A stretch of DNA of 64,000 bases from Photobacterium angustum (GTDB lineage: Bacteria; Pseudomonadota; Gammaproteobacteria; Enterobacterales; Vibrionaceae), in contig NZ_MSCJ01000003.1 of the NCBI RefSeq assembly GCF_002954615.1, positions 124,001 through 188,000 on the forward strand, written 5' to 3'. Of the stretch, positions 47,780 through 51,401 are shown one piece after another. The translations under genes and the position numbers were made by a program. The number at the start of each line of letters is the position of its first letter. Within the stretch, counting starts at the first letter, position 1. The notes beneath the pieces are model-generated. The model made no database searches and was not told where the DNA came from. It was given only the letters and a program-made list of their open reading frames with translations.

Positions 47780-48206
47780 TCACAAAAACAACAATCAACT
47801 TACTTATCAACAAAGGACTGTAAATATAGAAACCAATTAAAAACAATAGGATAAAAACAAAAAGGCAGGCAATGACGCTATTTTAAGAATGGGAATTCAA
47901 CAAGCAGATGAGAATAAGAATTATATAAATCGCATATCTCTTACAAAAAAAAGCGCGAATTATGGGGAATATCTTACACAGATTAGTATTTTTATCTGTA
48001 TAAATGAGATGAATATCGGATAAAGAAAAGAGTAACAGCATAAAATAAAGAATAAAAAATCAATATTAGCGAATAGAAAAACAATAAAATAACCTAGATA
48101 GCCTTGCTGGAGCGAGTTTTTACCATGAAATAATATTCTTCATATTAACGGCTAATCTCCTTTAAAAATAGAATGATCAGCCTAAAATAAAACAAAAATC
48201 AACTTA
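47780..48206. other. AT-rich gene-free stretch
   Basis: About 430 bases of A-rich DNA before the 28-residue peptide gene on the minus strand. I see no gene, repeat or clear terminator in it. Confidence 0.45.
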
Positions 48207-48293
48207 TTAAACTGAAACAGCAAGTAGCGGAATACCGATCCAAAGTACGGATGCAAAAATTAAAAAAAAGAAATAAGTAGACTTAAATGACAT
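48207..48293 (-). CDS. Small hydrophobic membrane peptide (28 aa)
   Basis: On the minus strand an ATG at 48293 opens a 28-codon frame: MSFKSTYFFFLIFASVLW followed by IGIPLLAVSV. A strong ribosome site, AAGAGGT, lies 8 bases before the ATG, better than that of many genes here. The product is one hydrophobic helix with a short basic start, like the single-helix small membrane proteins of enteric bacteria that modulate larger partners. I do not recognise it. It lies divergent from the trpS2 leader, 154 bases away. Confidence 0.6.
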   Translation of the reverse strand: MSFKSTYFFFLIFASVLWIGIPLLAVSV

Positions 48294-48447
48294 AATTTAG
48301 ACCTCTTCGCAATCTTAATATGCTGCATTTTATACCTTTTAGTAATTATCGTATGTTCAAAAAATCAGTGGTTAGTTTTCAATTTTAGTAAACAAAACAA
48401 AGCATAAAATGCTTGATATAAAAATATTAAGGGAATATTGTTCCTCT

Positions 48448-48504
48448 ATGAAATTACGATTAAGTACACCTCACTCCTCATTTTGTTGGTGGCGCTCTTA
48501 CTAG
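48448..48504 (+). CDS. Leader peptide of trpS2 with tandem Trp codons (18 aa)
   Basis: ATG at 48448 opens MKLRLSTPHSSFCWWRSY and a stop at 48502. The two Trp codons are at 48487-48492, four codons before the stop, much as in E. coli TrpL (GWWRTS at its end). An AAGGGA lies 13-14 bases upstream, rather far for a ribosome site. The frame sits in front of alternative RNA stems leading to a tryptophanyl-tRNA synthetase gene. Together these make it a transcription-attenuation leader with good support. Confidence 0.8.
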   Translation: MKLRLSTPHSSFCWWRSY

Positions 48505-48601
48505 AGCGGCGCTGAACTAACACACCTTATTTTTTATGTTCATACGCTGCCGGAAGGTTTGCCATGAACAGTTACGATCTTGTTTAGTCCTCTCCGGTAG
48601 C
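48492..48601 (+). promoter_or_regulatory. Tryptophan attenuator with alternative stems before trpS2
   Basis: Stem 1:2 pairs GCGCTC (48492-48497) with GAGCG (48504-48508). Stem 2:3 pairs GCGGCG and TGAAC (48506-48517) with GTTCA and CGCTGC (48538-48550), 11 pairs around a small internal loop with one G-U. Stem 3:4 pairs GCTGCCGGA (48546-48554) with TCCGGTAGC (48593-48601), then AACAATTATTTT. Stems 2:3 and 3:4 share 48546-48550 and cannot coexist. A ribosome stalled on the Trp codons would cover segment 1 and favour 2:3. Stem 3:4 has a long 38-nt loop and a modest T-tail. Confidence 0.78.
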
Positions 48602-48625
48602 AACAATTATTTTCTGGAGAATACT

Positions 48626-49642
48626 ATGACAACATCAGCACAAAGCACTAACGTTATTCTTACTGGCGATCGCGCAACAGGTCCACTTCACCTTGGTCAC
48701 TATGTGGGTTCCCTGCAACAACGTATTCAACTACAACATCAGTACCAACAAACCATTCTTGTCGCAGATATGCAGGGGCTTACTGATAATGGGCATAACC
48801 CACAGAAAGTTGCTTCTAATATTTTAAACGTGGTAGCCGATTACCTCGCAGTCGGTATCGATCCCAACTTAACCACGATTTGTTTGCAGTCATCACTACC
48901 CGCATTGGCTGAGCTGACCATGTACTATTCAAACTTGGTATCGATTTCTCGTCTTGAACGTAACCCAACCGTTAAAAATGAAATTCAATCTAAAGCATTT
49001 GGCCGCTCAATTCCTGCCGGATTTTTAACTTATCCCATTTCTCAAGCGGCTGATATTACGGCATTTAAGGCTAATTTGATCCCTGTGGGTGATGATCAAT
49101 TACCCATGCTAGAACAAACCAATGAAATCGTAAGAAAAATTAACCATATAGCCGGAAAAGAGATCTTAGTGGAATGCCAAGCACTACTGAGTAATGTGGC
49201 ACGCCTACCAAGTACTGACGGTAAAAACAAAATGTCTAAATCAATGGGAAATGCGATTACGTTAGGCGCAGACAGTAAACAAATAAGCCAAGCGGTGAAA
49301 TCAATGTACACCGATCCTAACCATCTTCGCGTTGAAGATCCGGGTAACATTGAAGGTAATGTTGTCTTCACCTATCTTGATGCTTTTCATCCTGATCAAA
49401 ACTATGTCACTGAACTAAAAGAGCATTACCAACGTGGTGGTTTAGGGGATGGTACAACAAAGAAAGTTTTAGAGTCGTGCTTACAAGACTTAATCACGCC
49501 TATTCGTCAACGCCGTGAAGAATACTTAAATGATAAAGCGTATTTAGTTGAAGTATTGAAAAAAGGCACCGAAAAAGCCAATCAGGAAACTCAGCTAGTA
49601 TTACATGATGTGAAAGGCGCATTTGGGCTTAACCTTTTCTAA
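48626..49642 (+). CDS. trpS2: Tryptophanyl-tRNA synthetase, second (divergent) type
   Basis: 338 residues. ATP-binding HIGH-type motif as GPLHLGHYVGSL and the KMSKS loop as KNKMSKSMGN; LIPVGDDQLPMLEQTNEI is the Trp/tRNA region. The start, NVILTGDRATGPLHLGHYVG, differs clearly from the housekeeping gamma-proteobacterial enzyme ([22 protein letters not shown]), so this is a second isoform, and it is not beside dam-rpe-gph. The ATG at 48626 follows GGAG. Some second-type enzymes elsewhere resist indolmycin. The leader upstream suggests it is made when charged tRNA-Trp is scarce. Confidence 0.93.
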   Translation: MTTSAQSTNVILTGDRATGPLHLGHYVGSLQQRIQLQHQYQQTILVADMQGLTDNGHNPQKVASNILNVVADYLAVGIDPNLTTICLQSSLPALAELTMYYSNLVSISRLERNPTVKNEIQSKAFGRSIPAGFLTYPISQAADITAFKANLIPVGDDQLPMLEQTNEIVRKINHIAGKEILVECQALLSNVARLPSTDGKNKMSKSMGNAITLGADSKQISQAVKSMYTDPNHLRVEDPGNIEGNVVFTYLDAFHPDQNYVTELKEHYQRGGLGDGTTKKVLESCLQDLITPIRQRREEYLNDKAYLVEVLKKGTEKANQETQLVLHDVKGAFGLNLF

Positions 49643-49682
49643 TGGTTTCGGATATCTAAGTAACTTGGGTATAAAGGCAGCT

Positions 49683-51401
49683 ATGTTTATACTGACTCGA
49701 TTTTCAGATAAACATAGCCGTCCAATCACACAGTGCAGTTATATGGCAGCCATCGAACTCGAACAAGATTACTACCTTCACAACTTTAAAGCTTTGCTTA
49801 AAACCGTAGAGCAGTATCATGCTTCATTATTAACTACTGATGAAAAGCACTGGTTGCAATCTTTCCAACAGCTTTCAGCCGATGCGCAAATGTTACTGAT
49901 CCGCTTACTATCACGTAAAGGGATCTTGTTTCGTTTTAACAAACTCAATTATGAAGAAATTACAAATATCAACTTAGCTAAAGATGCGCTTATTCATGCT
50001 CAGTTTATTAGCCAAGAAATCACCGCTCTTCACCAGCAACAAGTTATCAGCATCAGTGATATTTTCTCACTCTATACCAAACCAGAGCTACAGCGTTTAT
50101 TCCCAACTCTTATTGATAAAACAGATAAGAAAGCTGAAATACTATTAAAGTTAGAGAGCTATGATGATAGTGAATACTTGCTTAGTGTCATTAGCGAGCC
50201 ACTTGTTATGATTCAACAACAAACACTGCTCGCAAAGTTTCTATTACTGTTTTTTGGTAATAGCCATCAAGATCTTAGCCAATTTGTATTAAGTGATTTA
50301 GGGCTAAATAAATTTGAAAATTACCAGATTGATACCAGCACGCAATTGTTCCACACCACAGAACAAGTAAACCAATGGCTGGCCTTAACCCAATTGTCTG
50401 ACTTATATTGGCGTGCCCATGAAACGAAAGACTACGATACTATTTCTTCCGTTGTACCATTATTGCCAAAAGCTGCTTCATGGTTGCCACTGGAGAATAA
50501 ACGCCAAAAACTTATCAATCATATTGCACGAGATTTAGAGCGTAACTATCAATATGACATAGCACTTGCTCTCTTTCGTCAAACTGAACGTACGCCAAGC
50601 CGTGAACGACAAGCACGAATACTCATGGCACAGCAACAATACCAAGCAGCCTATGATGTAGTGAAAAATATTCAGTATGATCCGAAAAATGAAGATGAAT
50701 ACGGCGTAAGTCTTAGGTTAGAGAAAAAGCTCGCAAAGTCAGTGAATCAAATTTTTACTGCCCCAAAAACGTTTGCTCCAAAAGCTATACAACTGCAACT
50801 TGCTAATCCTGAACGCCAAAGGGTTGAACGCTGTGCTGCTCGCTATTTTGAGTCCCAAGGTTGGACGGTGTTCTATCTTGAGAACCAATTTCTCAACAGC
50901 CTTTTTGGATTAGCAATGTGGGATATTATCTTTGCCCCTATCAAAGGCAGTTTTATTAACCCTTACCAATTAGCGCCACTGGATATGTTCAGTTCAGACT
51001 TTTACCTCAAGCGAAAAGACTTAATTAATGAACGCCTACAAGCGATTGAACAAGGCCACTTTGATGGTTGGCAAACACACTTTGAGACAAAACAAGGGAT
51101 CTCTAACTACTGGGTACATTGGGAGAACTTTAGTCAGCAAGCACTTACATTAGCGCTAAGCCATATACCACCAACTCAATTAGCGATGATGTTTCGTCGA
51201 TTACTAAAAGACTTACGCCACCACCGCTCAGGAATGCCAGATCTGATCATGTTTAATGACACAGGTTATCAGTGGGTAGAAGTCAAAGGACCCGGTGATA
51301 AATTACAAGACCACCAGTTGCGTTGGCTCGCTTTTTTTGACCAACATGGAATTCCCGCACAAGTGGCTTATATTACATTTTCAACTCCTAGCGAAGACTA
51401 A
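49683..51401 (+). CDS. VRR-NUC domain nuclease, bacterial FAN1-like (572 aa)
   Basis: The C-terminal 110 residues hold the VRR-NUC nuclease core: GMPDLIMFNDTGYQWVEVKGPGDKLQDHQLRWL, with the catalytic Asp and the E-V-K pair. Before it is a helical repeat part (ALFRQTERTPSRERQARILM, LENQFLNSLFGLAMWDIIF) and an N-terminal LEQDYYLHNFKALLKTV as in Pseudomonas FAN1. FAN1 proteins cut branched or cross-linked DNA. The ATG at 49683 has AAGG five bases upstream; the ATG at 49743 is an alternative closer to the length of known bacterial relatives. The gene follows trpS2 by 40 bases without a terminator, so it may share the tryptophan control. Confidence 0.9.
   Translation: MFILTRFSDKHSRPITQCSYMAAIELEQDYYLHNFKALLKTVEQYHASLLTTDEKHWLQSFQQLSADAQMLLIRLLSRKGILFRFNKLNYEEITNINLAKDALIHAQFISQEITALHQQQVISISDIFSLYTKPELQRLFPTLIDKTDKKAEILLKLESYDDSEYLLSVISEPLVMIQQQTLLAKFLLLFFGNSHQDLSQFVLSDLGLNKFENYQIDTSTQLFHTTEQVNQWLALTQLSDLYWRAHETKDYDTISSVVPLLPKAASWLPLENKRQKLINHIARDLERNYQYDIALALFRQTERTPSRERQARILMAQQQYQAAYDVVKNIQYDPKNEDEYGVSLRLEKKLAKSVNQIFTAPKTFAPKAIQLQLANPERQRVERCAARYFESQGWTVFYLENQFLNSLFGLAMWDIIFAPIKGSFINPYQLAPLDMFSSDFYLKRKDLINERLQAIEQGHFDGWQTHFETKQGISNYWVHWENFSQQALTLALSHIPPTQLAMMFRRLLKDLRHHRSGMPDLIMFNDTGYQWVEVKGPGDKLQDHQLRWLAFFDQHGIPAQVAYITFSTPSED

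Follow-up and report, generated by a model that had tools for sequence, protein, structure and literature searches.

The trpS2 gene of Photobacterium angustum, which encodes a second tryptophanyl-tRNA synthetase (TrpRS), is preceded by a short leader frame with tandem Trp codons (WW) and by an RNA region that can form several alternative helices, including one that covers the trpS2 Shine-Dalgarno sequence. The explanation that best accounts for the leader, its possible pairings, their covariation, the promoter geometry and the second TrpRS gene, all of which are read from sequence, is in our judgement probably ribosome-mediated attenuation, in which the leader senses charged tRNA-Trp and controls whether this spare synthetase is translated. 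Throughout, the window denotes the whole analyzed stretch of 64,000 nucleotides; the promoter, the leader with its segments and trpS2 lie on its forward strand.

Leader frame and locus layout

The leader frame (MKLRLSTPHSSFCWWRSY-stop; positions 48448..48504) has 18 codons and, by direct sequence reading, begins with an ATG at 48448 and ends with a TAG stop codon at 48502-48504; comparison of 82 leaders predicts it to be leaderless. The proposed sensor is the pair of Trp codons at 48487..48492, which was likewise read directly and is kept across the leaders. The trpS2 gene follows at 48626..49642, coding for a TrpRS II-like protein of 338 amino acids, and its Shine-Dalgarno sequence GGAG (48616..48619) is referred to below as segment 6. 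The 178-nt region has a folding z-score of -3.15, and equal stability was reached by one of 200 dinucleotide shuffles. A preliminary description had placed a frame with tandem Trp codons ahead of trpS2 and had interpreted it as a Trp-codon attenuator preceding a second TrpRS gene; the frame was borne out, with all claimed coordinates matching the sequence, and the attenuator is supported by the analyses below. The window also contains, at 48536-48625, an open frame in phase with trpS2 that has a possible ATG at 48536 and spans segments 3 to 5; this frame is probably fortuitous.

Promoter geometry and a predicted leaderless start

A predicted promoter (TTGATA-17-TATTGT, scoring 9/12) has its -35 box at 48413..48418 and its -10 box at 48436..48441, only 6 nt before the leader ATG, and would start transcription at 48448. 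The same arrangement, with TTG at the place of the -35 box and TAnnnT separated from the leader ATG by 6-8 nt, was found in 75 of 82 upstream regions, 72 of them with boxes 17 nt apart and 6-7 nt between the -10 box and the ATG; shuffled upstream regions showed this geometry in 1.45 cases on average and in at most 5 (200 rounds). The geometry of the promoter boxes predicts transcription to start on the leader AUG. A Shine-Dalgarno-like 4-mer precedes the leader in one of the 82 trpS2 leaders, in contrast to nine of 12 trp-operon leaders, where one of the three scored as lacking it (L148) perhaps had its start wrongly chosen. The presence of a Shine-Dalgarno sequence in 79 of 82 trpS2 genes themselves proves nothing, because the starts were chosen with a preference for it. 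The trpS2 leader thus appears to be leaderless, with a predicted +1 on or next to the AUG. In a trp-operon leader from another family of the order (L154), we noticed by eye that TTG and TAGATT boxes put +1 on the ATG and that a Shine-Dalgarno sequence is absent, so this is possibly another leaderless trpL.

Conservation and distribution of the leader

The preliminary description had proposed that the WW codons should be kept upstream of trpS2 orthologs, and this is what we observed: a WW frame stands ahead of trpS2 in 110 of 111 rows (the window plus 110 loci, many of them duplicates). Our script recognized the frame in 108 rows, and two of the three misses (L018 and L027) do show it on inspection; the third, L092, has no WW frame in the 228 nt of upstream sequence that its contig offers. 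Removal of this locus and of L040 and L016, where WW frames are present but the script recognized no start of trpS2, and collapsing of duplicates left 82 distinct leaders. All of them have exactly two Trp residues and a length of 16-23 amino acids. The residue after WW is Arg in 70, Cys in seven and His in five leaders, and it is followed by Ser, replaced by Ala in two. In the seven WWCS leaders the Arg codon CGC has become TGC, and its partner in the RNA changes along with it, from a C-G to a U-A pair. In the five WWHS leaders the codon CAC breaks one pair of helix 1:2.

WW leaders were also identified in distant relatives, including Klebsiella, E. coli and Salmonella plasmid copies, Aeromonas, Proteus, Salinivibrio, Variovorax and Burkholderia, as well as in two genomes of the same phylum outside the class (L131 and L132), which are probably alphaproteobacteria. 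An Acinetobacter locus (L119) and the locus L137 have no WW leader upstream of their trpS2-type gene, and among the other loci, at 38-43% identity, we saw no clear WW leader of the trpS2 kind, the short WW frames of L133 and L134 excepted. A covariance-model search of 274 genomes of the class, in which up to 12 candidates from each genome were scored, returned the element itself (2.8e-17) and one weak match (0.007).

A contig labelled as a Desulfobacterium metagenome-assembled genome (L073) carries a trpS2 that is 75% identical to that of the window and has a WWHS leader; its occurrence under the label of another phylum reflects either transfer or mis-binning. On the Klebsiella plasmid pB18083_2 (L117, 279-5970), the trpS gene with the WW leader adjoins mtr, which codes for a tryptophan permease, with IS1 transposase genes flanking the group on each side. 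An E. coli plasmid (L126) encodes a TrpRS with the same protein accession, and a match on a Shigella plasmid scores equally.

The spare synthetase and its copy number

The trpS2 product is assigned to TrpRS by TIGR00233 (243.7 bits), and its closest solved chains are 1yi8 (359.9 bits) and 2a4m, the latter named Tryptophanyl-tRNA synthetase II; we take both to be TrpRS II of Deinococcus radiodurans. By sequence the protein belongs to the TrpRS II subfamily. The housekeeping trpS of the same genome is located on another contig (360 bits). Its motifs GVQPSG and DLHAIT correspond to GDRATG and DMQGLT in the trpS2 protein, and the GDR.TG and D-x-Q patterns also occur in nine other aligned trpS2-type proteins. 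In Bacillus TrpRS, the corresponding Q and H presumably contact the inhibitor indolmycin. The trpS2 product, with active-site motifs unlike those of the housekeeping enzyme, may plausibly be an inducible backup for conditions that inhibit the main TrpRS.

Over its length, the trpS2 protein shares 99.7% identity with its counterpart in P. angustum ATCC 25915 (L031). Among the matches listed, a long trpS2 match with at least 66% identity occurs in about 130 of 296 Vibrionaceae-level genomes, two of these matches (in G127 and G091) being shorter. Matches with internal stops or partial extra copies were noted in G091, G241, G290, G177 and G222. The gene seems to have been gained and lost within the family.

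TrpRS was found at an E-value of 1e-40 or better in 120 of 121 genomes of the family, and the housekeeping type is missing only from G021. The trpS2 type is the sole TrpRS over the family cut-off in G021, G390 and A. baumannii W02, and the leader is absent from all three, of which G390 and W02 had been examined because they lack the leader and G021 because it lacks the housekeeping gene. The locus in G021 (L169; G021:C1:14200-15900) lacks a WW frame within 400 nt upstream. The leader is present in all three two-copy genomes checked outside Vibrionaceae (Aeromonas W01, G633 and G666). This relation of leader presence to copy number, drawn from these six genomes, fits a device for an inducible spare within the limits of small numbers.

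Alternative helices and their covariation

Five helices are possible in the leader RNA: 1:2, 2:3, local 3:4, 3x:5 and 5:6. The pairing that the preliminary description had called 3:4 is here renamed 3x:5, because its 3' arm is segment 5. We counted covariation in 47 leaders, hand-picked out of 59 leaders with differences above 7%, themselves a subset of the 82, and give for each helix the percentage paired and the number of pairs with two-sided change. Segment 1 (CGCUCU, 48493..48498) pairs with 48503-48508 in helix 1:2 (97.9%; 3 of 6 pairs). Segment 2 (AGAGCGGCGCUGAAC, 48503..48517) may pair with segment 1 or with segment 3, and the core of 2:3 is paired in 91.1% (1 of 6 pairs). The local 3:4 hairpin (48537..48570) joins UGUUCAU to AUGAACA around the apex GCC-GGAA-GGU (80.7%; 7 of 11 pairs). 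Helix 3x:5, a proposed anti-sequestor of the ON state, has its 5' arm at 48546..48557 and its 3' arm, segment 5, at 48589..48601, as indicated by folding and covariation (92.0%; 9 of 13 pairs); the CUCC of segment 5 also pairs with the Shine-Dalgarno sequence. The sequestering hairpin 5:6 (48580..48632; 87.7%; 4 of 8 pairs) covers both the Shine-Dalgarno sequence and the start codon of trpS2. Its core joins UCUCCGG (48591-48597) to CUGGAGA (48614-48620), outer pairs extend to the start codon, and the folding energy of 48580-48640 is -14.9 kcal/mol.

The pairs expected for 3x:5 were all present, namely the nine between GCUGCCGGA (48546-48554) and UCCGGUAGC (48593-48601) and the extra ones between GG (48556-57) and CC (48589-90). 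Compensatory changes, which had been anticipated in both stems, were found in nine of the 13 pairs of 3x:5; stem 2:3 was kept with little two-sided change, and the apex of 2:3 showed no covariation, as 158 of 300 shuffles reached it.

We then scored combined structures in the same 47 leaders. The OFF structure (1:2, local 3:4 and 5:6) is 87.0% paired with two-sided change in 14 of 25 pairs; none of 500 shuffles reached any of its five measures, and slid controls were 41-47% paired. The ON structure (2:3 and 4:5) is 89.2% paired, with two-sided change in 7 of 17 pairs, and the combination of 1:2 with 3x:5 is 93.8% paired, with two-sided change in 12 of 19. For each of the three structures, the percentage paired was reached by none of 500 shuffles, slid versions giving 31-60%. 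The weak points are the two-sided pairs and further pair types of the ON structure, reached by 21 and 69 of 500 shuffles, respectively, and the further pair types of the 3x:5 structure, reached by 28.

On the tree of trpS2 proteins, the 5:6 columns 144-182 changed from AU to CG, from CG to GC and from GC to AU, and the 4:5 columns 97-144 changed twice from CG to UA. The five varying 5:6 pairs account for 14 direct compensatory steps versus 35 breaking steps. A complementary run of at least 8 nt to the Shine-Dalgarno region precedes 54 of 82 trpS2 starts, which are related and not independent, versus 13 of 86 other gene starts from the same loci, and occurs in 18% of shuffled upstream regions. 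Hairpin 5:6 is short or missing (complementary runs below 6) in seven of the 82. As is expected of a ribosome-mediated attenuator, mutually exclusive helices are kept by covariation, with 2:3 varying little; and as is expected of a translational attenuator, the Shine-Dalgarno sequence of the regulated gene is sequestered in the default fold, weakly so in the same seven starts.

Proposed mechanism and direction of the switch

The start site, the stalling, the direction of switching, the translational output and the role of the enzyme are the predicted parts of our explanation. Transcription would start on or next to the leader AUG, and the frame would be read as a leaderless message. When Trp-tRNA is plentiful, the ribosome would reach the stop codon and cover segment 2, so that hairpin 3:4 folds and segment 5 pairs with the Shine-Dalgarno sequence of trpS2 in 5:6, the OFF state. 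A ribosome stalled at WW would instead cover segment 1, allowing segment 2 to pair with segment 3 and to open hairpin 3:4; segment 5, which is made before the Shine-Dalgarno sequence, would then zip onto segments 3 and 4 with up to 13 pairs, and the Shine-Dalgarno sequence would stay free, giving the ON state.

Equilibrium folding of the full RNA with ribosome masks did not separate these states, the Shine-Dalgarno sequence being mostly paired in every one (mean unpaired fraction 0.06 free, 0.11 at stall and 0.10 at stop); it was more open at stall in nine of 82 leaders, more open at stop in five and similar in 68. Before the Shine-Dalgarno sequence emerges, 3x:5 is commoner at equilibrium with the ribosome at the stop codon (0.91-0.93) than with a stalled ribosome (0.60-0.69), an order that fits the preliminary description and counts against reading 3x:5 as an ON-state helix.

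We also folded the 47 leaders cotranscriptionally with a barrier-limited model that admits only refolding steps below a chosen barrier and counts 3x:5 from 6 pairs and 5:6 from 4. At a barrier of 8 kcal/mol in this home-made model, whose moves all lead toward the minimum-energy fold and whose outcome varies with the threshold, 5:6 formed in 39 of the 47 leaders with the ribosome at the stop codon, in 12 with the ribosome stalled at the second Trp codon (W2) and in 24 without a ribosome, and the corresponding numbers for 3x:5 were 1, 32 and 6. Barriers of 6, 7, 9 and 10 gave the same direction, with a less sharp separation at the two lowest. In the window at barrier 8, 14 bases of segment 5 are in 3x:5 and none in 5:6 at stall, versus 0 and 8 at stop; at barrier 7 the window switches with the ribosome at W2 and not at W1. 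A first version of the model, run at barriers 5, 8 and 11, gave an open Shine-Dalgarno sequence at stall and stop in 9 and 4, 14 and 3, and 7 and 0 of 47 leaders, and 3x:5 in 12 and 10, 32 and 1, and 16 and 4, respectively. When ten distant relatives were folded at barrier 8, stalling left the Shine-Dalgarno sequence less paired than did the stop state in three (L118, L122 and L131), equally paired in five and more paired in the Klebsiella locus L117, the Burkholderia locus L121 not being scored. The difference was clear in Salinivibrio (0 Shine-Dalgarno bases paired at stall versus 4 at stop), and in Burkholderia the stall fold contains the long 3x:5 helix and the stop fold the local hairpin. 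With moderate confidence, we regard 3x:5 as probably the ON-state helix that frees the ribosome-binding site; since in the model it forms at stall and not at stop, its role is probably the reverse of the terminator previously assigned to it.

More tentatively, the trpS2 leader may represent a widespread proteobacterial class of tRNA-Trp sensors, in which a leaderless WW mini-frame controls a three-hairpin kinetic latch exposing the Shine-Dalgarno sequence of a spare TrpRS, with the leader kept in second copies and lost where the gene is the sole TrpRS (three genomes). If segment 2 acts in this class as a transient opener, the former terminator becomes an ON-state helix, and the retention of the leader on second copies together with its loss on sole ones would mark inducible backup synthetases.

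The terminator question and alternative readings

A terminator role for 3x:5 was not confirmed in the window, where two of the eight bases after the helix are T, and the terminator with a U tract that characterizes RF00513 leaders was not found there. A scan of 47800-49900 for terminator-like sites returned one, at 48103-48116, upstream of the leader. As a control we used trp-operon leaders over the RF00513 cut-off in 25 genomes, including our own; all 12 have 5-10 T directly after the terminator stem, with the reservation that the script sought runs of at least five T at 60-150 nt after the WW codons, a biased step. The real trp-operon leader of the P. angustum genome (RF00513, 55.2 bits) ends in GCGGGC-TTTTTT. 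The trpS2 leader has the short frame with tandem Trp codons that is typical of RF00513, and gives no match to the covariance model of that family at gathering score. Rfam gave no matches in the window, a T-box leader at gathering score included, and none of the six RF00513 matches in the genome, weaker or stronger, lies at trpS2. The E. coli trp layout as such, which the preliminary description had recognized here, was not supported, given the missing Rfam match, the two T in eight and the extra pairing of segment 5 with the Shine-Dalgarno sequence; we have filed the trpS2 leader as a variant of ribosome-mediated attenuation outside the trp-operon leader family.

Classical transcription attenuation, with 3x:5 as an intrinsic terminator when the leader is completed, 2:3 as antiterminator and a secondary Shine-Dalgarno pairing, nevertheless has points in its favor. 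The geometry of WW, stop codon and segments matches trpL, the structure with 3x:5 tops the three counted structures in percentage paired and covariation score, and the equilibrium preference for 3x:5 at the stop codon agrees with it. At least five T in the eight nucleotides after 3x:5 were found in 29 of 82 leaders, so some termination is possible in some species. We consider this reading unlikely for the system as a whole, in view of the T content of the window against that of the 12 trp-operon leaders, of the lack of a T run after 3x:5 in L117, L120, L121 and L131 (read by eye), and of the 5:6 pairing, which it leaves unexplained and which would block the read-through message. In L117 and L132 the T-rich stretch, again read by eye, follows the local 3:4 hairpin instead (GGCGGCTTTGTTGTTT in L117 and GGCGGCCTTTTTGTTTTT in L132), with WW leaders kept. 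These stretches raise the prospect of two-layer control, where in some distant relatives the local 3:4 hairpin would act as a terminator alongside translational gating by 5:6, and the terminator layer would have been lost in Photobacterium and Vibrio. Such an arrangement seems improbable to us, as it rests on ten distant relatives, whose switch was mostly not reproduced by folding.

The same switch could also work with the opposite sign, stalling forming 2:3 while segment 5 covers the Shine-Dalgarno sequence, so that trpS2 would be off under starvation. Nested pairing gives this outcome if 2:3 is stable enough to exclude 3x:5, and helices 2:3 and 5:6 coexist in the fold of L023 when the ribosome sits at W2 and the barrier is 7 or 8. 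This direction would be odd for a synthetase, however, and at barrier 8 most of the 47 leaders show the reverse in the cotranscriptional model; we give it little chance of being correct.

Significance and comparison with known systems

If the proposed mechanism is true, the trpS2 leader is a leader-peptide attenuator in common marine bacteria by which the level of charged tRNA sets the translation of a synthetase, and relatives of this system are also found on plasmids of enteric bacteria. Spare TrpRS genes would be induced exactly when the main enzyme is blocked, which would link an RNA switch with naturally produced inhibitors of TrpRS, indolmycin among them. Passages of two papers name the marine bacterium Pseudoalteromonas luteoviolacea as an indolmycin producer (PMC6804068, PMC5069768). 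The conserved promoter geometry makes the leader a good case for studying how a ribosome can load on a 5'-terminal AUG quickly enough to control folding, and the three alternating hairpins, with compensatory changes in each, make the folding order directly testable.

In the open-access literature searched (titles, beginnings of abstracts and passages), we found no description of a trpS attenuator in proteobacteria, and a paper on RNA leaders in Shewanella contains no word starting with trpS or tryptophanyl. A 2010 study by Lopatovskaya, Seliverstov and Lyubetsky, which by its title is said to deal with attenuation of amino acid and aminoacyl-tRNA operons, could predate the present leader. An indolmycin-inducible TrpRS of S. 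coelicolor was reportedly the subject of Kitabatake 2002, going by its title, and a second, indolmycin-resistant TrpRS in Streptomyces is mentioned in passages of reviews.

The trpS2 leader shares with the E. coli-type trp attenuator (RF00513) a short leader frame whose tandem Trp codons lie a few codons ahead of its end, the placement of the stop codon between segments 1 and 2, and mutually exclusive helices of the 1:2, 2:3 and 3:4 type. It differs from that attenuator in having no Rfam match, two T in eight at the place of the U tract, a pairing with the Shine-Dalgarno sequence and no Shine-Dalgarno sequence of its own, and in preceding a synthetase gene rather than biosynthesis genes. Passages of a study of Streptomyces describe predicted attenuators of the classical type upstream of trpS genes, including trpS2 of S. 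avermitilis, and give pheST as the example of synthetase attenuation in γ-proteobacteria (PMC1262725). The likeness lies in a predicted attenuator before a second TrpRS gene; in contrast to the Streptomyces attenuators, the present leader is proteobacterial, is predicted to be leaderless and is proposed to gate a Shine-Dalgarno sequence. According to a passage of PMC7298713, the trpL transcript of Sinorhizobium meliloti begins directly with the ATG of a leader peptide frame that takes part in Trp attenuation. The trpS2 leader would share this leaderless start, by inference from promoter geometry, whereas the S. meliloti element is a transcription attenuator of trpE(G) and not of a synthetase gene.

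In translational attenuators of the ermC type, stalling on the leader rearranges hairpins and exposes a Shine-Dalgarno sequence. The proposal for trpS2 has this stall-driven exposure in common with them; the signal in ermC-type systems is a ribosome-bound drug acting on two hairpins, whereas that of the trpS2 leader would be uncharged tRNA acting on three alternating hairpins.
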